Shown here one piece after another: positions 2,642-17,881 of a stretch of 21,700 bases of DNA; the first letter of the stretch is position 1, and each line of letters begins with the position of its first letter. Under the pieces are notes generated by a model that did not search any database, was not told the DNA's origin, and saw only the letters and a list, made by a program, of their open reading frames with translations. Made by a program: the position numbers and the translations under genes. The DNA is from a virus, in IMG/VR virus record IMGVR_UViG_3300035698_003432, positions 1-21,700 of that record; one strand, 5' to 3'.

Positions 2642-2847
2642 TATACCCTCTCCTTAGAAAAAAAAAAAATATTTTTTATTTGTATAGGCTAAATAACTAG
2701 GAAACTAGGAAAAATAGCGTCAAATAAGGAAAGTAGAGCAAAATAGACTAGGAAAACACTAGGAAAATTCCTAGTAGTTCTAGGAAAACAGAGGATCCAG
2801 GACCTGTTTTTTAATTTTATTTTTTTTATTTCTAGGATGAGGGTATA
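2642..2847. repeat. inverted repeat enclosing A/T tracts
   Basis: The 19-mer at 2829-2847 (TTTCTAGGATGAGGGTATA) and the reverse complement of 2642-2660 (TTTCTAAGGAGAGGGTATA) agree at 16 of 19 positions. Each copy has a long A/T homopolymer tract on its inner side. The right copy ends 32 nt before the terS start. The symmetry resembles paired protein-binding sites or divergent regulatory elements. Confidence 0.65.
2697..2788. repeat. CTAGGAAA iteron-like cluster
   Basis: CTAGGAAA occurs at 2697, 2705, 2748, 2759 and 2780, with a degenerate TAAGGAAA at 2725 and an inverted TTCCTAG at 2768-2774. The 2759-2774 stretch forms CTAGGAA-AA-TTCCTAG. Five exact copies of an 8-mer within 92 bp is far beyond chance, suggesting a multi-site binding region for a protein such as a terminase small subunit, replication initiator or repressor. 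Confidence 0.7.
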
Positions 2848-2879: not shown

Positions 2880-3389
2880 ATGCCTAAAAAGAAAAACAGT
2901 TTAAAAACCAGTGAAGAGCTAACAATCAAACAGAGAATGTTTGTTGATAAATTAGTTAGTGAATGGGGCCAGATATCAAAAGTTGATGCCGCTAAATTTG
3001 CAGGGTACACATCTAAAAACAAATACGGGCCAACTGAGATTGCTTCAAGATTACTTAACCCTGATATGAATCCTCACGTTGTTAGATATTTAGAAAAAAG
3101 ATTACAAAGAGAGACAGACAAATACTCTAAAGATAAATTAAGGGCGTATAAAACATACGACATACTAAAAGATGCTGCATCAAAAAAAGGACAATTCACA
3201 GCAGCGATTAATGCAGAATACAGAAAAGGACAAATGGCAGGATTTTTTGTAGATAAAAAAGAAATTAATCATATTGGATTGGAGGGCATGTCTCGTGAAC
3301 AACTTGAACAACGCTTATCTGAACTTGAAACCAAGATCGGAGAAGGCAAAAACATTATTAACGTTACGGCAGAAGAAATTACTTCATAG
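2880..3389 (+). CDS. terminase small subunit (putative)
   Basis: The 169-residue protein begins with a basic tail and then LTIKQRMFVDKLVSEWGQISKVDAAKFAGYTSK (about residues 14-46), the helix-turn-helix segment typical of Terminase_2-like small subunits, where newly replicated DNA is recognised. A second conserved part ASRLLNP...VVRYLEKRL follows. The C-terminal GLEGMSREQLEQRLSELETKIGEG is a helical oligomerisation and TerL-contact region in such proteins. Length is normal for the family. The large subunit lies about 6 kb downstream at 9512, an unusually distant pairing. The non-coding repeats immediately upstream could be its binding sites. The ribosome site is weak (GAG at 2875). Confidence 0.8.
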   Translation: MPKKKNSLKTSEELTIKQRMFVDKLVSEWGQISKVDAAKFAGYTSKNKYGPTEIASRLLNPDMNPHVVRYLEKRLQRETDKYSKDKLRAYKTYDILKDAASKKGQFTAAINAEYRKGQMAGFFVDKKEINHIGLEGMSREQLEQRLSELETKIGEGKNIINVTAEEITS

Positions 3390-3399
3390 CGGTAATTGG

Positions 3400-3528
3400 A
3401 TGGTTGTGTTCAATGAGATACACAATCCAACTATTAACTCTTCAGTAGGTAATGTTACTGTTTCTGTTGACGACCATATATTAGAAAAAGAATTAGCTAA
3501 CGATATAACTTATGAGAATGAAGTTTAG
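3400..3528 (+). CDS. small hypothetical protein (42 aa)
   Basis: The frame is open from 3274, but the first part overlaps terS out of frame; ATG 3400, ten bases after the terS stop, is the first start outside it. The product is acidic with alternating Val/Thr typical of a short beta sheet (NSSVGNVTVSVDD). No ribosome site is obvious. Its stop codon is the first base pair of the following 31-bp repeat. Confidence 0.45.
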   Translation: MVVFNEIHNPTINSSVGNVTVSVDDHILEKELANDITYENEV

Positions 3529-3589
3529 GAATCTTGAAGTGTATATGGGAATTTTTTAGGAATCTTGAAGTGCCCATGGTAATTTTTTA
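3528..3589 (+). repeat. 31-bp tandem repeat, two copies
   Basis: Two adjacent copies (3528-3558 and 3559-3589) begin with GGAATCTTGAAGTG and end with AATTTTTTA, differing only in the middle. The core AATCTTGAAGTG is shared with the triple 57-bp array at 7460-7629, and a degenerate copy (AATCTTGAATTATTTTTTA) starts at 3939 after the next gene. Confidence 0.85.
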
Positions 3590-3601
3590 GAAAGGTAAAA
3601 T

Positions 3602-3940
3602 ATGAAAAAAAAGAAAAATAAAAAAAAATCAAAAAGAAAATTTAAAAAAATATTTCCTTTGAATACAAAAACGCTGGGCAATGATATAACAAAATATCCA
3701 TTTGTAGAGATAGAATGGCTTGATATTGAGGGTGACGCAGGTTGGAGTAATACAAAAGATTTAAATAAAGAAATTTTACCAACGTGTGTATCTAAAGGTT
3801 ATCTATTAAGTCAAAAAAAAGGTATAACCAGAATATTCTCTGATTATATAAAGACTAAAGAAAAGCCTACATTTGATACTATTGGTAATACAACTATAAT
3901 TCCAACAGCAGTAATACAGAATATAAAAAAAATAAATTAA
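3602..3940 (+). CDS. conserved hypothetical protein, Lys-rich N-terminus
   Basis: AGAAAGG at 3589-3595 provides a ribosome site. The 112-residue product starts with an extreme poly-Lys segment (MKKKKNKKKSKRKFKK), then a small globular part: FVEIEWLDIEGDAGWSN (about residues 34-50), LPTCVSKGYLLSQKKGITRIFSDYI (59-83) and a beta-rich TIGNTTIIPTAVI. The body resembles small conserved phage proteins of unknown function that have a DxEGDxxW-type segment. The basic tail may bind nucleic acid. It stands alone between two repeat-bearing intergenic regions. Confidence 0.65.
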   Translation: MKKKKNKKKSKRKFKKIFPLNTKTLGNDITKYPFVEIEWLDIEGDAGWSNTKDLNKEILPTCVSKGYLLSQKKGITRIFSDYIKTKEKPTFDTIGNTTIIPTAVIQNIKKIN

Positions 3941-3977
3941 TCTTGAATTATTTTTTAAACACTATATGTAGTGTTCC

Positions 3978-4070
3978 ATGAATGATTTTATAGCACTTTT
4001 AGTGAGAGGCTTTGTATTTTTTCCTATTACATTTATTATTATAATAATATTATTATTATTAATCACTTAA
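3978..4070 (+). CDS. possible 30-aa membrane peptide
   Basis: The frame encodes a short soluble start followed by a continuous hydrophobic stretch (FVFFPITFIIIIILLLLIT), enough for one membrane helix. There is no convincing ribosome site, and AT-rich DNA favours Ile/Leu frames, so existence is doubtful. Confidence 0.3.
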   Translation: MNDFIALLVRGFVFFPITFIIIIILLLLIT

Positions 4071-4106: not shown

Positions 4107-4147
4107 GCTCTATTTAACTTTAATTAAACTAAAAAAAGGAGTTAAAA

Positions 4148-4738
4148 ATGGGATTTGATTTAAACGGACTTAATCCAAAAAACATAAAAATAGAAAAACC
4201 AAAAAGACCTGACAATGTTTATAAATTATCAGATAAAGAGCAGGAAAAATATTTTAGAAAAGAACATAAATATTTAGAGCAATCTGGTACTTATTTTAGA
4301 AATAATGTTTGGTGGTGGAGACCTTTAGCAGAATATGTAGTTGAACATACTAAAGTAATTAATCAAGATAAAATTACTTTAGAGGGTTGGAGTAGTAATT
4401 CTGGCTTTGAAGTTGATAATGAGTTAGCAACACAAATTGCTAATCAGCTTGACGCTTTAATTAAATCTGGTCACACTAAAAAATATCAATCAGCTTACAT
4501 GTTAAGATTTAAACAAGCTGAAATTGGTAATGCTAAAATCCAAAAAGAAATAGATAAACTAGATAAACTTCCTAGAAATAAAGATTTAGCACCTGCTGAT
4601 TATAATACAAAAGATACTGCAGAATGGGATAGACTTTATCAAAAACAAGATAGACAAGCCTCATATCCATTTTCTGAAAAAAATGTAAAAGAGTTCTCTA
4701 TATTTTGCAGAGCAAGTGGTGGATTTAGTATTTGTTAA
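4148..4738 (+). CDS. conserved phage hypothetical protein (196 aa)
   Basis: AAGGAG at 4136-4141 within the shared leader defines the start. The N-terminal half contains GTYFRNNVWWWRPLAEYV (about residues 47-64), a Trp-rich helix; the middle is charged and Lys/Asp-rich; the C-terminus YPFSEKNVKEFSIFCRASGGFSIC (173-196) is a distinctive conserved ending, with two Cys and GGF. I associate this architecture with small proteins of unknown function in many phages, often early-expressed. No catalytic motif is evident. It is the first gene of an early unit with its own promoter. Confidence 0.7.
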   Translation: MGFDLNGLNPKNIKIEKPKRPDNVYKLSDKEQEKYFRKEHKYLEQSGTYFRNNVWWWRPLAEYVVEHTKVINQDKITLEGWSSNSGFEVDNELATQIANQLDALIKSGHTKKYQSAYMLRFKQAEIGNAKIQKEIDKLDKLPRNKDLAPADYNTKDTAEWDRLYQKQDRQASYPFSEKNVKEFSIFCRASGGFSIC

Positions 4739-7438: not shown

Positions 7439-7459
7439 ACCACGCCTCTCGGCTTTCAT

Positions 7460-7629
7460 AATCTTGAAGTGCCTAACCATGTTTTTCGCTTCTCTATTAC
7501 CTTTACATAGTTTCAGAATCTTGAAGTGCCTAACCATGATTTTCGCCCCTATAAAACCTTTACATAGTTTCAGAATCTTGAAGTGCTATAACTAACTTTT
7601 CGCTCTTCTTTACCTTAACATTAGTTCAG
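7460..7629 (+). repeat. triple 57-bp tandem repeat
   Basis: Units begin at 7460, 7517 and 7574, exactly 57 bp apart, each starting AATCTTGAAGTG and ending near AGTTTCAG. Units one and two are close copies (AATCTTGAAGTGCCTAACCA in both); unit three has diverged in the middle. The region has no coding frame. The core is the same 12-mer as in the repeat pair at 3528-3589. Confidence 0.9.
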
Positions 7630-9511: not shown

Positions 9512-10990
9512 ATGGTAAACAAAGAATTACTAACCACAGAAGAACTTCGATTAAGACTCGAGAAGTTGATGATAGAACATATTAAATTATGTCAGGACAA
9601 CTTTCTATATTTTGTTCAAGAGATGTGGCCAGATTTTATTTGTAGAAAAGAAAAGGAACCTTCTAAGTGGGGCCATCACCAAATAATTGCAGATGAATTT
9701 ACTAAAATTTCAAAAGATAAAGTAGGTAGGCTTATTGTTAACATGCCACCTAGGCATACTAAATCTGAATTTGCATCAGTTTATTTTCCTGCATGGATGA
9801 TTGGTAAGTATCCTAAAATGAAAATTATGCAGGTATCCCACAACGCAGAATTATCAGGAAGATTTGGTGCTAAGGTAAGAAATTTAATTGATAGTCCAGA
9901 GTATAAAAATATATTTGGAGATGTTAAACTTAGAGAAGACTCAAAAGCAAAAGGCAGGTGGGAGACTAACCATGGCGGTGAGTACTTTGCAGCGGGTGTT
10001 GGCGGATCTATCACAGGTCGAGGGGCTGATTTGCTTATCATAGATGATCCACATACAGAGCAAGATGCTTTGTCTAAGAATGCAATGGAAAGAACTTATG
10101 AATGGTACACTGCCGGACCACGGCAACGTTTACAACCAGGTGGTTCTATTGTTCTCGTGATGACCCGTTGGGCCGAAGACGATCTAACAGGTCGTCTGCT
10201 AAAAGCATCAGACCAACCCAAATCAGACAGATGGCGTACAGTATCATTCCCAGCAATCCTACCGTCCAACAAACCAGTTTGGCCAGAGTATTGGTCACTA
10301 GAGGAATTAGAAACGGTAAAAGCTTCTTTGACAGTGAGGAACTGGTCTGCACAATATATGCAAGAGCCAACCTCAGAGGAGGGAGCACTTTTAAAAAGAG
10401 AATGGTGGTTACCTTATCCATATAAAAATTTACCATATTGTAATCATATTATCCAGAGTTATGATACAGCATTTTCAAAAAAAGAAACAGCCGATTATTC
10501 AGCTATTACGACTTGGGGTATATTTACTCCAGAAGATGGTGAAGCAGATGCTCTTATACTAATAGATGCTATTAAAGGTAAATGGGATTTTCCAGAATTA
10601 AAAGCTGTAGCACTAGACCAATATAAATATTGGGAACCAGAAACCGTGATTATTGAGGGTAAAGCTAGTGGTCAGTCATTAATTCAAGAGTTGCGTAGAA
10701 TGGGGATACCTGTTATAGATTTCACTCCAGGAAGAGGACAAGACAAACATTCACGGGTCAACGCTGTATCACCTATATTCGAAAGTGGTCAAGTGTGGTA
10801 CCCAGAAGGAGAAGATTGGGCAGAAGAAGTGATTGAAGAGTGCGCAGCATTTCCTCACGGATCACACGATGATTATGTTGATAGTACTACCCAAGCTATG
10901 ATAAGATACCGTCAGGGTTATTTTATTTCAATTTCTTCTGACGAGAAGTATGACCAGAAACAAAAGGATCCTAAATATATATATTATTAA
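9512..10990 (+). CDS. terL: terminase large subunit
   Basis: The 492-residue DNA-packaging motor cuts and pumps DNA into the procapsid through the portal. ATPase motifs: a degenerate Walker A, MPPRHTKSE (residues 78-86), Walker B LLIIDDPH (174-181) with catalytic-type acidic residues, and the coupling motif VLVMTRW (214-220). The C-terminal RNase H-like nuclease shows D318 in QSYDTAF, E382 in VIIEGKASG, and the HDDYVD group (452-457). Length and layout fit complete TerL proteins of the Terminase_6 type. Most frames in other phases here are shadows. No clear ribosome site is visible; the start at 9512 is nevertheless the first in this frame. It precedes the portal gene, as in most tailed phages. 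Confidence 0.92.
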   Translation: MVNKELLTTEELRLRLEKLMIEHIKLCQDNFLYFVQEMWPDFICRKEKEPSKWGHHQIIADEFTKISKDKVGRLIVNMPPRHTKSEFASVYFPAWMIGKYPKMKIMQVSHNAELSGRFGAKVRNLIDSPEYKNIFGDVKLREDSKAKGRWETNHGGEYFAAGVGGSITGRGADLLIIDDPHTEQDALSKNAMERTYEWYTAGPRQRLQPGGSIVLVMTRWAEDDLTGRLLKASDQPKSDRWRTVSFPAILPSNKPVWPEYWSLEELETVKASLTVRNWSAQYMQEPTSEEGALLKREWWLPYPYKNLPYCNHIIQSYDTAFSKKETADYSAITTWGIFTPEDGEADALILIDAIKGKWDFPELKAVALDQYKYWEPETVIIEGKASGQSLIQELRRMGIPVIDFTPGRGQDKHSRVNAVSPIFESGQVWYPEGEDWAEEVIEECAAFPHGSHDDYVDSTTQAMIRYRQGYFISISSDEKYDQKQKDPKYIYY

Positions 10991-11005: not shown

Positions 11006-11725
11006 ATGGGAAAATTAAGTGATAAATTAAAGAAAATAGGTAAGGCCGCAATTGTTGCAGGCGCTGCTTATGGCGCATCAAAAATGATGGCTAATAAAAA
11101 AGGAATTGCTTTCGGTAGACCGAAAGAAGGAACAATTGATCAGATGGCTAAAAATAGAAAGCTACCTTCTAACCTAACTAAAGATATGGGTATGAATAGA
11201 AAACTAGGAGATGTTAAAACAGTTCCTTTTAAAGGAAACAAAAAATCTATTTATGCAAGTGATGATGGTTCAATTCAAAAAGGTGACAAGCTTTATAAAA
11301 ATAAAAATGTCTATAAAAATAGAAACAAAAATATAGCTACAGCAAAAAAAGAAACTAATATTTTTGGTGGAATGACTGCGGAACAAAGAGCAGCTAAAGC
11401 TGCTGAAAGAAAAGCTAGAATATTAGAGTTCCAAAAAAATAAAAATAAAAAAGCTACTGGCGGAATGACTAAAGCTAAATCAGGTAAAATGATTAAAGCT
11501 AATTCTGGTAGAATGAATCTTCTTGAACAAATGGGAAGATTAGATTCTAAAAAAAGACCCGACAGTAATGTTAGAGCTGAAAAGAGAAGAGTAATATCTG
11601 AACTTAATAGCGGTGCTAAAAAAGGTAAGATGATGAAATACAATTCAGGCGGTATGGCTGATGTTACTACTAGAGGTCAAGGTGTTGTATTAGCAGGAAA
11701 GAAAACAAAAACTTATATTTGCTAA
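11006..11725 (+). CDS. Lys-rich basic protein with SGKM-type repeats
   Basis: AAAGGAGA before the ATG is a strong ribosome site. The 239-residue protein has a small hydrophobic N-terminal helix (AAIVAGAAYGASKMM, residues 13-27), a long Lys/Asn-rich middle with many KNK segments, and repeated short motifs, KSGKM, NSGRM, KKGKM, NSGGM, between about 155 and 215. It ends with GQGVVLAGKKTKTYIC. The composition and place between TerL and portal suggest a minor virion or ejected protein that binds DNA, seen in other marine phages; direct proof is absent. The stop abuts the portal ATG. Confidence 0.65.
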   Translation: MGKLSDKLKKIGKAAIVAGAAYGASKMMANKKGIAFGRPKEGTIDQMAKNRKLPSNLTKDMGMNRKLGDVKTVPFKGNKKSIYASDDGSIQKGDKLYKNKNVYKNRNKNIATAKKETNIFGGMTAEQRAAKAAERKARILEFQKNKNKKATGGMTKAKSGKMIKANSGRMNLLEQMGRLDSKKRPDSNVRAEKRRVISELNSGAKKGKMMKYNSGGMADVTTRGQGVVLAGKKTKTYIC

Positions 11726-14104
11726 ATGGCTGAAATAGAAAAAGATATAAATCTACTGGAGGAAACTCCAGTAGGTTCAGAAGACATTAATGAAGAAGTT
11801 AATGTTGAGATAGAAGGAGACGAAGAAGTCTCTGTAGAGGATGTTGTATCTGAAGTAGATGAGCACTATAAAAATATTGCAGAGGACATGGATGAACGTG
11901 ACCTTAAAAGAATGGCTTCTTCATTAGTAGCCGAATATAAAAAAGATGTTATTTCAAGAAAAGATTGGTCAGACAGTTATACTAGAGGTTTAGACTTACT
12001 AGGTTTTAAATATGTAGATATGACAAGACCGTTTAAAGGCTCGGCAAGCGTGCATCATCCATTACTTGCAGAAGCCGTTACTCAATTTCAAGCGCAAGCT
12101 TATAAAGAATTATTACCTTCAGATGGCCCAGTAAGAGTTAGAGTTATGGGAACTGAAGATCCAGCTAAGATGAACCAAGCTACACGGGTCCAGGATTTCA
12201 TGAACTATATGTTAATGGAAAAGATGGAAGAATATACTCCAGACTTTGATCAACTATTATTTTATTTACCTCTAGCAGGATCTGCATTTAAAAAAGTTTA
12301 TTATGATGAGATTATGCAAAGAGCAGTATCAAAGTTTGTTCCTGCAGAAGATATTGTAGTACCTTATTATGCTACAGATTTACAAGACTGTGAAAGAATT
12401 ACTCATGTTATTAGAATGGGTGAAAATGAATTACTAAAAAAAATGGAAGCTGGTTTTTACAGAGATGTAGAGATTAAACCTTCTCAACCAGAAGAATCAC
12501 AAATACAAAAAGAATATCAAAAGATTGAAGGTGTTACTCCAACAGGTCAAGATAGATATGATCATACTGTTTTAGAAATGCATGTTGATTTAAATTTAGA
12601 AGAGTTTGAAGTAGATAATGCTGAGAAAGCTATTAAGGTTCCGTATATTGTAACAATAGATGAAGGTAGTAATGAGGTATTATCTATTTACAGAAACTAT
12701 AAAATTGATGACGATTTAAAAGTCAGACAGAATTATTTTGTTCACTTTAAATTTTTACCTGGTTTAGGTTTTTATGGCTTTGGTTTAATTCATATGATTG
12801 GTGGTTTAACTAGAACTGCTACTCAAGCATTAAGACAGTTATTAGATGCAGGTACTTTAAGTAATTTACCAGCAGGTTTCAAGAGCCGTGGTATTAGAAT
12901 CAGGGATGATGATCAACCTTTCCAACCTGGTGAGTTCAGAGATGTAGATGCGCCTGGTGGAAATATAAAAGATCAGTTTCAAATGCTACCTTTCAAAGAA
13001 CCAAGCGCCACGCTTTTCCAGCTACTAGGCTTCGTTGTGGGTGCAGGACAAAAGTTTGCAGCAATCACGGATATGGCAGTTGGCTTAGATGAGCAAAACA
13101 GATCAGTAGGTTCGACTATTGCAATCCTGGAACGTGGCTCACGGGTCATGACAGCTATTCACAAAAGATGTTACTATGCAATGAGACAGGAGTTTAGAAT
13201 GCTAGGTAAAGTTTTCGCAGACTATCTACCCCCTATTTATCCTTATTCAGTCTATGGTGCAGACCAAGCAGTTAAACAAACAGACTTCGATGACAGAGTA
13301 GATGTTATCCCAGTTGCAGATCCTAATGTTTTCTCAATGTCACAAAGAGTAACGTTAGCAAATGAAAATTTAAAAATTGCACAATCTAATCCACAACTTC
13401 ACAACTTAAGAGAAGCTTACAGAAGAGTTTATGAAGCATTGGGAACTAAAGATATAGATCAAGTATTACGTCCAGAAATACAACCTATACCTAAAGATCC
13501 GGCAATCGAGAACCTTGAAGCATTACAAATGCAAATGCCTAAAGCGTTCCCTACACAAGATCATAAAGCTCATATCCAAGCTCATAGAGCGTTTATGGCA
13601 ACAAGAATGGTACAGATTAATCCAATGGTGATGGCTTTATTACAAGGACATATCTCGGAACACGTTTCAATGTTAGCTCAAGGGGAAGTAGGAGCAATGC
13701 TTCAAGAAGATCCTATGATGCAACAAGAATTACAAGCGGATCCAGAAGCAGCACAAATTAAAGTTGAGGCTCTAATTGCACAACAAATTGCTAAGATTAC
13801 AACAGAACTTGCACAAGAAGAAGCAGGAGGCCAAAAACAAGACCCACTAGTTGCATTAAAGCAAAGAGAACTAGACTTAAAAGCGATGGAGTTACAGAGA
13901 AGAAGTGAAAGTGATATGATGACTAATGAACTTCAACAAGAAACTCTTGATGAAAGAATGGATATTGAGAAGATGAAGCTAGAAGATAATGAAGACCAAG
14001 CAGCAGAAAGAATTAGAATTGCTGAAACTAAGCTAGCTCAGAATAGAATGATTGCAGAAGAAAGATTAAGAGTTCAAAAAATGAGAGATAAAAATAAAAA
14101 CTAA
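11726..14104 (+). CDS. portal protein (P22 type)
   Basis: 792 residues. The portal forms the dodecameric ring at one capsid vertex through which DNA passes. An acidic leader (1-50) is followed by DERDLKRMASSLVAEYKKDVISRKDWSDSYTRGLDLLGF, then TRPFKGSASVHHPLLAEAV (the wing start typical of P22 gp1-like portals), a core with LPLAGSAFKKVYYDEI, and a conserved RQLLDAGTLSNLPAGFKSRG segment. The region ITDMAVGLDEQNRSVGSTIAILERGSR is also typical. The final 110 residues (about 680-790) are a Gln/Glu/Met-rich coiled coil matching the long P22 barrel. Very long for a portal but normal for this type. It overlaps the next gene by one base. Confidence 0.88.
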   Translation: MAEIEKDINLLEETPVGSEDINEEVNVEIEGDEEVSVEDVVSEVDEHYKNIAEDMDERDLKRMASSLVAEYKKDVISRKDWSDSYTRGLDLLGFKYVDMTRPFKGSASVHHPLLAEAVTQFQAQAYKELLPSDGPVRVRVMGTEDPAKMNQATRVQDFMNYMLMEKMEEYTPDFDQLLFYLPLAGSAFKKVYYDEIMQRAVSKFVPAEDIVVPYYATDLQDCERITHVIRMGENELLKKMEAGFYRDVEIKPSQPEESQIQKEYQKIEGVTPTGQDRYDHTVLEMHVDLNLEEFEVDNAEKAIKVPYIVTIDEGSNEVLSIYRNYKIDDDLKVRQNYFVHFKFLPGLGFYGFGLIHMIGGLTRTATQALRQLLDAGTLSNLPAGFKSRGIRIRDDDQPFQPGEFRDVDAPGGNIKDQFQMLPFKEPSATLFQLLGFVVGAGQKFAAITDMAVGLDEQNRSVGSTIAILERGSRVMTAIHKRCYYAMRQEFRMLGKVFADYLPPIYPYSVYGADQAVKQTDFDDRVDVIPVADPNVFSMSQRVTLANENLKIAQSNPQLHNLREAYRRVYEALGTKDIDQVLRPEIQPIPKDPAIENLEALQMQMPKAFPTQDHKAHIQAHRAFMATRMVQINPMVMALLQGHISEHVSMLAQGEVGAMLQEDPMMQQELQADPEAAQIKVEALIAQQIAKITTELAQEEAGGQKQDPLVALKQRELDLKAMELQRRSESDMMTNELQQETLDERMDIEKMKLEDNEDQAAERIRIAETKLAQNRMIAEERLRVQKMRDKNKN

Positions 14105-14916
14105 TGCCTTTTAAATCAGATAAACAAAGAAGATATTTATACGCTGAGAAACCTAAAGTTGCAAAAAAGTTTGCAATGGATTCAGCTAAAAAAGGTAAGC
14201 TGGCTAAATTAAAAAAAGGAGACTCTGTAGATACAGGAGATTTTGGTTCAGAAGCAGCTAATGATGCAAGTTTATCTGCTGGAAATCAAAGTGTTGGTTA
14301 TGGTGGAAGCGATGGAGATCCAAGAACTGGGGGTGGAGTTACCACAGGACCAGCAACAGTAACAGTTAACCCAGGGCCTAGACAAATTCCAACAATAGGA
14401 CCTTTAAGTTGGGGTATTAATAAGGTATTAAAATCTTCGTGGCAATCAAAAAATGAAAAAACAGCAAGAGAGGAAGATCTTCTTGGTGGAGAGATGCAAA
14501 CAACAGGAAATGTAGCAACAGGCCCTGCCGGTGGTGGCGGTGAAGGTGGCGGACAAAAAAACAAAAAATGTCCAGATGGAAGTAATCCACCCTGTAAAAC
14601 TACAGCTAAAAAAACTACCAGATCAAAACCTGTAGTAAAACCAGTACAACAATTTGATAATTTTAAAGCTTATAAAAAAGGTAAAATGATTAGTACACAG
14701 AATAAAGTAAATGGTGTTGTTACAGCTTTAAAAAAAGCTTCTAAATTACATGCAGGTCAAGCTAAAACATTATCAAAATTAAAATTAAATAAAGGCGGTG
14801 GAGTACCCTATGGTCCACCACCACTAAGAGGACCTAACCCACAAGTACCTCCAGTAAAATTCTCCAGAGGTGGAAGATCTGCTTTAAGGGGAACTAAATT
14901 TAAAGGGGTATTTTAA
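14104..14916 (+). CDS. conserved basic low-complexity virion-type protein
   Basis: TAATG overlap with the portal gene. The N-terminus MPFKSDKQRRYLYAEKPKVA is the small KSxKQRRYL motif seen at the start of many phage proteins of unknown function. After it come Gly/Thr/Pro-rich low-complexity stretches (GPAGGGGEGGGQKN), a Cys pair CPDGSNPPC and a Lys-rich C-terminal half with KKGKM and GGGVPYGPPPLRGP. The composition indicates disorder. With the basic gene before the portal it shares KKGKM-type motifs, suggesting a related head or ejection role (inference). The stop overlaps the next start as TAATG. Confidence 0.65.
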   Translation: MPFKSDKQRRYLYAEKPKVAKKFAMDSAKKGKLAKLKKGDSVDTGDFGSEAANDASLSAGNQSVGYGGSDGDPRTGGGVTTGPATVTVNPGPRQIPTIGPLSWGINKVLKSSWQSKNEKTAREEDLLGGEMQTTGNVATGPAGGGGEGGGQKNKKCPDGSNPPCKTTAKKTTRSKPVVKPVQQFDNFKAYKKGKMISTQNKVNGVVTALKKASKLHAGQAKTLSKLKLNKGGGVPYGPPPLRGPNPQVPPVKFSRGGRSALRGTKFKGVF

Positions 14917-15299
14917 TGTGGTTTCAAGCAATCAAATTAGCAGTTTCTGCAGGATCAAAAATTTACGCTAACAAGCAAAAAACAAAGATAGCCATGTCTG
15001 ATGCACAGCTTATGCATGCATCTCGTATGGCCGAAGGTAAAGAAGCTTACCAAGGAAAATTGTTAGAAGCACGTCAATCAGATTGGAAGGACGAGGCCGT
15101 TCTTATTGTGCTCTCGGCCCCTATAGCAATTTTGGCCTGGGCAGTTGTAAGTGATGATCCGACAGCGATGGACAAAGTAAAACTGTTTTTCGAAATGTTC
15201 TCAGAGCTTCCTAAATGGTTTACAAATTTATGGATTCTTGTCGTGGCAAGTATTTATGGTATTAAGGGAACACAAATATTTAAGGGCGGTAAAAAATGA
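14916..15299 (+). CDS. holin-like membrane protein (putative)
   Basis: 127 residues. The first 50 residues form an amphipathic helix (FQAIKLAVSAGSKIYANKQK...). RQSDWKDEAVLIVLSAPIAILAWAVV (about 53-78) starts with the charged lead-in and first membrane helix, and LWILVVASIYGIKGTQI (104-120) is the second, followed by a basic tail KGGKK. The pattern WKDE-hydrophobic helix-loop-helix-basic tail recalls the phage/GTA 3TM holin-like family, which makes holes for lysis. It also could be an ejected membrane-active protein given its place among head genes. The stop overlaps the next gene by four bases (ATGA). Confidence 0.55.
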   Translation: MWFQAIKLAVSAGSKIYANKQKTKIAMSDAQLMHASRMAEGKEAYQGKLLEARQSDWKDEAVLIVLSAPIAILAWAVVSDDPTAMDKVKLFFEMFSELPKWFTNLWILVVASIYGIKGTQIFKGGKK

Positions 15300-16392: not shown

Positions 16393-16804
16393 ACAACCTA
16401 CAGCTGAATTTAAAGAAGCTAAGGAAGAAAATCAAGTACCTACAGATCCACAAGGCATCAAAGAATATCTTGAAATCATACCAAACCCAGTAGGATACCG
16501 AATGTTAGTCAGACCATGGTCTGGACATAAAAAAACAAAAGGTGGACTTTTATTAACCGAAGAAACATCAGATAAAATACAGATGACAACAGTTGTTGCC
16601 CTTGTAGTTAAAATGGGTGATCTTTGTTATAAAGATGAAAGTAAATTTCCCAAAGGTGCTTGGTGTAAAGAAGGCGACTTTATCATTTATGGTAGATATG
16701 CCGGCTCACGATTTCAAACTAAATTCGGTGAACACCGAATACTCAATGATGACGAGATTATAGGAACAGTCAAAAAGCCAGAAGATATTCTCCGTTTATT
16801 TTAG
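16376..16804 (+). CDS. GroES-like co-chaperonin (Cpn10 fold)
   Basis: 142 residues. After a 36-residue extension come PVGYRMLVRPW (38-48), the mobile loop KKTKGGLLLTEETSDK (52-67) with a GG followed by three hydrophobic residues as in GroES IVL, and VVALVVKMGDLCYKD, EGDFIIYGRYAGSRF and ILNDDEIIGTV of the Cpn10 barrel. It would cap host GroEL and help fold a capsid protein, as phage T4 Gp31 does. No GroEL gene is in the window, so host GroEL would be used. The gene directly precedes the scaffold and capsid genes, which fits assembly help. Longer than bacterial GroES (about 97 residues) because of the N-terminal extension. Confidence 0.8.
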   Translation: MATMIEQPTAEFKEAKEENQVPTDPQGIKEYLEIIPNPVGYRMLVRPWSGHKKTKGGLLLTEETSDKIQMTTVVALVVKMGDLCYKDESKFPKGAWCKEGDFIIYGRYAGSRFQTKFGEHRILNDDEIIGTVKKPEDILRLF

Positions 16805-16813
16805 GAGGATAAA

Positions 16814-17881
16814 ATGGCAGAAGTAAAAGACTATAGTGCAGAAGCACTAATGAAAAAAGAAAGTGATGTTCCTTTAGATATTGATGATTCTAATGAAACA
16901 GTAATAGAGTTAGACCAACCAGAAAAAAAAGAAGAATTACCCAATCTTGATAGAGGGGAAGTTGATTTAGGTGGGACAGCCCATACTAAAGAACCAGAAA
17001 AAAAAGAAGAACTTCAAATAGAAGAGACAGGAGAAGAAACTAAACTTGTTAAAGAAGAAGTTAAACTTGTTAAAGAAGAAGAAAAACTTGTTAAAGAAGA
17101 AGACAATTTAGTTAAACATTCTGACAACTATCAAAAAAGAATTGATAAGCTTACTAGAAAATACAGAGAAGCTGAAAGAAGAGAAAAAGCTGCTTTAGAT
17201 TTTGCTAAGGGTTTACAAAAAAAGTATGACACTACTGTCAGAAAAGCTGATACTTCAGAGGATCAACACTTAAAAGAGTTTGATGCTAGAGTGGATGCTC
17301 AAAGAGAACAGGTCAAGAACGTACTTCGTGATGCTATTGAAAAGCAAGATACTGATAAAATCATGGAGGCAAACGATAGACTAACTCAATTAGCTGTAGA
17401 AAAAGAAAAAGCTAGATTAGAGATGGGAAATCGTGAAGAGCAGAAGAAGATAAAAGAAGAAGAAGTTAAATCAACAACAAACGTTGAAGCAAACAATCTA
17501 GAGACTCAACCTACCCAACAACCAATTACACCTAAAGCTAAGAAATGGGCTGAAGAAAATACTTGGTTTGGGGATGACGACGTCATGACTAATGCTGCAA
17601 TCACTATTCATAATAATTTAGCTCAAGAGGGGCTTGAACTGGACAGTGATGAGTATTATACTGAAGTAAATACAAGACTACGGAAATATTTTCCAAGTAG
17701 TTTTGGTGCTAATGACGAGCCTGAAAAGGAGAAACCGAAACCCGTCCAAACGGTTGCTTCGGCTGGTCGTAAGCAACAGGGACGCAAAACTGTGAAACTC
17801 TCGCAATCACAGGTAGCTATTGCTAAAAGATTAGGCGTGCCACTAGAGGAATATGCTAGATACGTGAAGGAGGATAATTAA
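16814..17881 (+). CDS. putative scaffold protein
   Basis: AGGAGG overlaps the upstream stop as ribosome site. The 355-residue product is highly acidic and helical, as expected for scaffolds that organise capsid subunits and then leave. Residues 77-104 are four 7-residue repeats of the form KLVKEEx. A long coiled-coil region (about 100-215) follows, then TPKAKKWAEENTWFGDDDVMTNAAITIHNNL (about 240-270), a segment common in scaffolds just before the C-terminal capsid-binding part. The C-terminus is basic, KQQGRKTVKLSQSQVAIAKRLGVPLEEY. Placement between GroES and capsid gene supports the call; no protease domain is visible. Confidence 0.75.
   Translation: MAEVKDYSAEALMKKESDVPLDIDDSNETVIELDQPEKKEELPNLDRGEVDLGGTAHTKEPEKKEELQIEETGEETKLVKEEVKLVKEEEKLVKEEDNLVKHSDNYQKRIDKLTRKYREAERREKAALDFAKGLQKKYDTTVRKADTSEDQHLKEFDARVDAQREQVKNVLRDAIEKQDTDKIMEANDRLTQLAVEKEKARLEMGNREEQKKIKEEEVKSTTNVEANNLETQPTQQPITPKAKKWAEENTWFGDDDVMTNAAITIHNNLAQEGLELDSDEYYTEVNTRLRKYFPSSFGANDEPEKEKPKPVQTVASAGRKQQGRKTVKLSQSQVAIAKRLGVPLEEYARYVKEDN
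17042..17125 (+). repeat. 21-bp coding tandem repeat (scaffold)
   Basis: Units at 17042-17062, 17063-17083 and 17084-17104 begin with AAACTTGTTAAAGAAGAA, and a diverged fourth unit occupies 17105-17125. In the protein they form heptads of KLVKEEx; this is a recent in-frame expansion. Confidence 0.9.

Follow-up and report, generated by a model that had tools for sequence, protein, structure and literature searches.

The window, which is the whole stretch of 21,700 nucleotides of viral DNA analysed here, contains an array of the 8-bp word CTAGGAAA directly upstream of a gene for a small terminase subunit (terS). As judged from its sequence and from that of its relatives, the most likely role of this array is that of the DNA-packaging initiation (pac-type) site of an HTVC023P-type pelagiphage. 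The terS product of the window shared 61.9% identity with its counterpart in Pelagibacter phage HTVC023P and the large subunit (TerL) 79.8%, and the window is therefore taken as a fragment of an HTVC023P-type pelagiphage. Pelagiphages of this type infect SAR11 and are described as widespread (PMC9599517).

The features of the array are summarized in Table 1. Exact copies of CTAGGAAA start at 2697, 2705, 2748, 2759 and 2780, all on the plus strand, and no other exact copy occurs in the 21,700 bases. The array spans 2697-2787, which is 93-183 bp upstream of the terS start at 2880. A minus-strand CTAGGAA at 2768 forms the dyad CTAGGAA-AA-TTCCTAG with the site at 2759, and an extra CTAGGA is located at 2832. 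The array is bracketed by two inverted arms of 30 nt each, which are 87% complementary and separated by 146 nt. An earlier note on this DNA had described five exact copies within 92 bp, an inverted copy with its dyad and flanking inverted repeats, and all of these were recovered.

Table 1. Coordinates of the array, its arms and the terminase genes in the window, and of the second repeat array in three relatives
Feature	Position	Strand	Basis or remark
Left tandem pair, CTAGGAAA x2, 8-bp period	2697..2712	+	Exact matches, simulations
Spacer	2713..2747	.	43-44 bp from site start 2705 to 2748 in most relatives
Right doublet, CTAGGAAA at 2748 and 2759, 11 bp apart	2748..2766	+	
Inverted site CTAGGAA, dyad with 2759 site	2768..2774	-	
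Distal site CTAGGAAA	2780..2787	+	
Left arm, TATACCC...CTTAG then A-tract	2642..2671	+	Inverted-repeat search; arm-pair comparison
Right arm, T-tract then CTAGGA...GGGTATA	2818..2847	-	Inverted-repeat search; arm-pair comparison
terS, 169 aa, Terminase_2-like, predicted N-terminal helix-turn-helix, proposed array reader	2880..3389	+	
terL, large terminase subunit	9512..10990	+	phrog_38, Terminase_6C
GTTGTACTCG-type iteron array, L021	~3934-4060		
GTTGTACTCG-type iteron array, L012	~4128-4290		
GTTGTACTCG-type iteron array, L023	~2955-3035		

Several other repeats were observed around the array. Imperfect direct repeats of ~32 nt (88%) lie upstream of it at 2457-2559 and are absent from the compared stretch of the close relative L002. 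The motif CACGG-NN-CACGG is present at ~2617-2633, just outside the left arm, and by eye it recurs in many relatives with other array words. The sequence AGCTTAGTCATGGTGG(G)TACC is common to the window (~2222-2242) and HTVC023P (~10679-10699), in both of them near the end of the gene upstream. Tandem repeats containing AATCTTGAAGTG, with units of 31 bp and 57 bp, occupy the intergenic positions 3524-3590 and 7454-7626, and similar ATCTTGAG/ATTGAG repeats, identified partly by eye, are found in HTVC023P at 12469-12565 and ~14905-15060; these are possibly dispersed regulatory elements. The Rfam search of the window gave no match.

The bare number of CTAGGAAA copies is only mildly unusual, the shuffle mean being 1.44 with five copies reached in 2 of 100 shuffles. 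It is the clustering and not the number that exceeds chance. The maximum for any non-low-complexity 8-mer was 3 copies per 92 bp in 300 first-order Markov simulations of 21.7 kb and 4 copies, reached once, in 200 simulations with the local intergenic composition, compared to the 5 observed. CTAGGAAA is the most clustered 8-mer of the window, tied only with the overlapping ACTAGGAA. It is also the most clustered 8-mer in the complete genome of HTVC023P, where 5 of its 7 copies form one cluster (11680-11771) upstream of terS. A chance or low-complexity repeat without function could be suspected in such an A/T-rich region, where the bare count was matched by 2 of 100 shuffles; with the clustering above all simulations and the layout conserved among related contigs, which refutes this reading, its probability is negligible.

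The occurrence of the array in relatives was analysed by scanning viral contigs for the tandem 16-mer CTAGGAAACTAGGAAA, which gave 84 stretches. A terS relative was present downstream on the same strand in 71 of these contigs, with no discordant case, and the distance from the tandem pair to the aligned terS start in the 71 was 44-255 bp with a median of 186. Four stretches were, by eye, arrays ended by the locus or contig end before terS (L062, L064, L069 and L085). The other nine, also by eye, were isolated two- or three-copy stretches in other sequence with the rest of the array missing, one of them (L076) having three tandem copies ahead of an unrelated reading frame; these nine were taken for chance. 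In the blastn search of positions 2600-2880 against 50,697 phage records, HTVC023P was the sole match at E <= 0.01. Among 20 long records, most of the records in these one-locus-per-genome counts not being known to be complete, all 11 with the CTAGGAAA array (class A) had the cluster at a single place and scattered single copies elsewhere; the tandem pair is the one exact part of the array in G011, and the copies of G014 are spread across ~490 bp. The CTAGGAGT cluster, counted in 18 whole records, was found only in the four class-B records, once in each, with scattered single copies elsewhere. Enrichment of CTAGGAAA at the array only, which the earlier note had named as support for a site, held in the window, in HTVC023P and in the long CTAGGAAA-array contigs, apart from the scattered single copies.

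The geometry of the sites was compared in 31 non-redundant arrays anchored on the tandem pair (sites 0 and 8 given), allowing one mismatch per site and leaving out the rearranged array of L054. Further sites were located at 50-52, 61-63 and 81-84, and 14 of the 31 arrays had an inverted site at 69-71. In the right doublet the second site, assigned from the listed positions, was at +61 to +63 in 26 arrays and at +73/+74 in 5, and no forward site was present at +64 to +72 in any of the 31. The right-hand sites of L007, L055, L063, L075 and L117 were shifted 10-12 bp further, to 73-74 and 93-94, and the first site of the doublet was not recognised in four of these five. A spacer that differs by roughly one turn of the helix suggests that a single complex contacts the DNA on the same face. 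The near-fixed layout with changing words also suggests a multi-site protein-binding complex.

The left and right arms of the same genome matched better than arms paired across genomes, with a mean score of 33.5 compared to 25.9, and the best of 5000 re-pairings gave 30.2. This match holds on average; individual arm pairs were modest, 12 of 50 being in the top tenth with the median at 26%. The pairing of the arms is supported, short of proof, as related genomes are not independent. An IHF-consensus-like word was observed in the spacer, perfect in 4 of 31 arrays and with one mismatch in 6 of 31, mostly in one register; only the 4 perfect words were individually rare in shuffles, and the spacer of the window has 3 mismatches. 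An IHF site at this place in some relatives is suggestive only.

The gene next to the array was characterised by profile searches and a structural model. The terS product of the window scored 22.6 bits against Terminase_2 (PF03592), which is under the curated cut-off of 26.1, and matched phrog_51 (terminase small subunit) with E = 1.3e-5, while PF03592 was matched by all 34 aligned relatives at E <= 0.01. The AlphaFold2 model was good at residues 1-80 and poor beyond, with a mean pLDDT of 72.6. Residues 13-76 of the model aligned with the DNA-binding domain of SF6 G1P (2cmp) with a Z of 7.8 and 1.7 A over 56 residues, and the same model gave Z 7.7 with 4zc3 and Z 6.4 with 3zqq, a structural Z below 8 alone being no proof. 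The re-alignment had named small terminases in four of its top five rows and a phage protein in the first. The Foldseek search of the model against the PDB gave no match at E <= 0.001, and the sequence search of solved structures gave no terminase match. The terS product scores as a Terminase_2 or SPP1-like small terminase with a predicted helix-turn-helix of the SF6 G1P type. In record G012, TerL is in three pieces (L283-L285), one of which has an internal TGA and TAG, and the other matched records read through; assembly error, decay and insertion are all possible explanations of this split.

The earlier note had left a pac site and origin iterons side by side. As the array adjoins a Terminase_2-type gene and CTAGGAAA is enriched only there, the pac site is now the leading reading and a probable one, and the origin stands as the alternative. 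At such a site several helix-turn-helix domains of a TerS oligomer would contact the CTAGGAAA sites on a near-fixed helical geometry, with these sites framed by the two inverted A/T-tract arms. A wrapped or looped complex would bring in TerL, which would cut nearby and start headful packaging of the concatemer. We infer that TerS is the reader, that cleavage takes place here and that packaging is headful.

The ends of the available records were analysed with respect to the array. The terS start, located by hand in 12 records of at least 55 kb, was at widely varied places and at least ~3.6 kb from the contig end. Of 10 long contigs, two carried short end repeats, of 77 and 93 bp, and eight carried none; direct terminal repeats would look alike. 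Circularised genomes are also reported in the HTVC023P-type group (PMC9599517). The varied terS positions and the end repeats argue against fixed ends at the array and leave headful packaging unproven. Fixed physical ends at the array were considered and rejected: contig ends at most 600 bp upstream of terS were found in 16 of 98 rows compared to ~5.4 expected, yet they were scattered over 57-575 bp. The 98 rows were taken from 115 after leaving out matches cut inside terS, rows of 35% identity and repeats of one contig. The excess of contig ends is tentatively read as assembly breaks in a variable region. The titles, abstract openings and passages covered contained no packaging site for the HTVC023P-type group; for the 80 such genomes of PMC9599517 there was none in the passages on terminase, repeats or packaging or in the section on core characteristics. 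A 125-bp direct terminal repeat was taken as evidence of packaging in another pelagiphage type (PMC10504331), and the 33.6-kb Lederberg EXVC029P is predicted to be circularly permuted (PMC7892664); neither belongs to this group.

The array word was compared in the region upstream of 67 non-redundant terS loci. An exact CTAGGAAA pair was present in 32, and by eye CTAGGAGT was assigned to 10, TTAAGAAA to 2, TTTAGGAA to 5 and CCAGGAAA to 1; the remainder, also by eye, were L194 with a diverged CTAGGAAA and 16 loci with other words or none recognised. The words CTAGGAAA and CTAGGAGT excluded each other in the last 330 nt, CTAGGAAA being found in 0 of 10 CTAGGAGT arrays and CTAGGAGT in 0 of 32 CTAGGAAA arrays. 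CTAGGAAA was also present in 4 of the 5 TTTAGGAA arrays and in the CCAGGAAA array, and single deviant copies were common among the CTAGGAAA arrays; a clean change of word is limited to CTAGGAGT and the two TTAAGAAA arrays. The arrays of L007 and L163 have the common layout 0+, 8+, 52-, 74+ and 94/95+ with different words. The trees of TerS, TerL, PolA and primase (21, 16, 20 and 21 tips, records lacking or splitting the gene being omitted) all placed the CTAGGAAA pair G001/G019, the source records of L004 and L007, together with the CTAGGAGT phages at local support values of 0.956-1.0, and the placing of other groups differed between the four trees. As four trees join this pair to the CTAGGAGT phages, the word was probably switched within the lineage containing both.

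The layout and the words are consistent with a packaging-identity code formed by the array and its reader, in which the geometry of the site would be frozen and the word rewritten at the sites; we propose this tentatively, as a reading with the balance of probability against it. The rewriting within it would be clean to CTAGGAGT and TTAAGAAA and partial to TTTAGGAA and CCAGGAAA, with further words in distant relatives. The gene trees were also tried as a pointer to the gene of the reader and were rejected for this purpose, as TerS, TerL, PolA and primase all agreed on G001/G019 and none was singled out. Covariation between TerS and the motif was rejected as well, no residue region separating the motif classes beyond phylogeny in the sets of 62 of the 67 proteins and then 45, from which short or too distant proteins and those of other classes were left out. 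The recognition-helix region did not consistently differ more between motif classes than within them, and the recognition-helix letters of class C were the same as those of some class-A proteins. The class-B proteins entered the 62-protein comparison without their first nine residues, the query L020 starting at residue 10; from this late anchor the class-B distances between array and terS are 27 nt too long, and the spacings within the array are unaffected.

The main alternative to the pac site is a replication origin, in which the repeats would be iterons for a phage initiator, the A/T-rich flanks would unwind, and the adjacency to terS would only reflect the meeting of the replication module with the late module at this place. 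The combination of direct repeats and A/T-rich DNA is the textbook layout, and SPP1 oriL and oriR are described with direct repeats and an AT-rich unwinding element (PMC6316719). No initiator is annotated beside the HTVC023P array, however, where many proteins are of unknown function, and primase, helicase and polymerase are ~5-10 kb off. In L012, L021 and L023, which have other array words, there is a second and more classical tandem array of GTTGTACTCG-type iterons (~16-bp period, up to ~9 copies, ~0.4-0.9 kb upstream of terS), and this is a competing origin candidate. In HTVC023P the GC skew ran almost monotonically and did not switch at the array, an outcome that speaks neither for nor against an origin. 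The genomes with inverted terS are on the side of the origin, as a look-alike array keeps a similar module border in them. There are two such genomes, HTVC027P and 023Pt_psg01, both distant members of the HTVC023P type. In 023Pt_psg01, TGGCACA, which ranks first among the 7-mers of the 20 kb read, forms a cluster at 13631 with five copies in 150 bp, and terS is near this cluster on the minus strand at 14383-14916. In HTVC027P, a similar-looking GTTACAATG/GTTTCAC array was located by eye at ~14780-14880 and did not emerge from the exact-word scan. If these two arrays are the same element, the array marks a module border close to terS and not always the region upstream of terS. An origin is on the whole a possible but unlikely explanation of the array.

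The position upstream of terS is also that of an operator or upstream activating region for terS and the late operon, as in autoregulation by TerS. According to a title cited in PMC6316719, the terminase of SPP1 represses its own production, and a TATG-n-TATAA-like box, seen by eye, abuts the terS start in many relatives. About six phased sites inside inverted A/T-tract arms are nevertheless elaborate for a single operator, and no second array was found elsewhere in the window or in HTVC023P. As the look-alike arrays sit by an inverted terS in HTVC027P and 023Pt_psg01, and not upstream of it, a pure promoter reading is lowered while the pac site and the origin both remain; an operator is improbable. 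An attP-like or other recombinase site, with inverted core sites and arm-type direct repeats, has a superficial likeness to the inverted arms and direct repeats here, but integrase and recombinase are absent from the deposited annotations of HTVC023P and HTVC027P, in which many genes are unannotated, and HTVC027P is called lytic (PMC12753301), making this reading highly improbable. For DSL-LC04 and L034, neither inspection by eye nor the list of top repeats showed a comparable array. Repeat tracts of GCTTG(A/T/C)GGCTTGAAGCTTG were observed in two gene-border regions of HTVC027P, at ~16500-16560 and 17390-17440.

The pac site of phage P1 has hexanucleotide repeats with an IHF site, and in P1 pac and lambda cosB one short word occurs in two groups with a spacer, beside or inside a small packaging gene. 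The present array resembles them in its grouped copies of a short word and in the possible IHF-like spacer word of some relatives, whereas its word and spacing are different and the IHF-like word is weak, and missing in the window. Lambda ori is an iteron origin. The direct repeats and adjoining A/T-rich DNA are similar to those of iteron origins such as SPP1 oriL/oriR and lambda ori, but the array lacks an annotated adjacent initiator and its constant neighbour is terS. It also differs from uniform tandem iterons in its mixed orientations and its spacings of 8, 11, 21 and 43 bp.

The pac region of SPP1 is described as three sets of direct repeats over the small-terminase promoters and the gene start (PMC4737164; PMC6316719), where G1P attaches to pacL and pacR and brings in the large subunit, which cleaves the DNA between the two (PMC6316719). 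The likeness of the pelagiphage array to SPP1/SF6 pac consists of direct repeats beside the terS start and a small terminase predicted to have an N-terminal helix-turn-helix of the same fold. The repeats also vary between close relatives in both systems, the SPP1 boxA repeats being reported as absent in SF6 (PMC4737164). The pelagiphage array differs in lying wholly upstream of terS, with one 8-bp word, near-fixed spacing and inverted arms; SPP1 pac enters gene 1 and has three repeat boxes, and its binding and cleavage are known, while those proposed here are read from sequence. The isolated DNA-binding domain of SF6 TerS is reported to have little preference for the pac repeats and a weak one for TTAGGTT (PMC4737164), and repeats near terS therefore need not be TerS sites. 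The TTAGGTT preferred by SF6 resembles the [C/T]TAGGAA core of the present sites, which is a coincidence worth testing.

If the array is the pac site, it would provide a concrete packaging signal for the HTVC023P-type pelagiphages, along with a natural set of DNA-site variants, each matched to a protein variant, in which the geometry stays nearly constant. With such a set, the selection of its own genome by a small terminase could be tested directly; the mechanism of this selection is called poorly defined (PMC4737164). If the packaging-identity code were also true, co-infecting sister pelagiphages would each package their own DNA only, and the word switches would be genetic isolation barriers between lineages.
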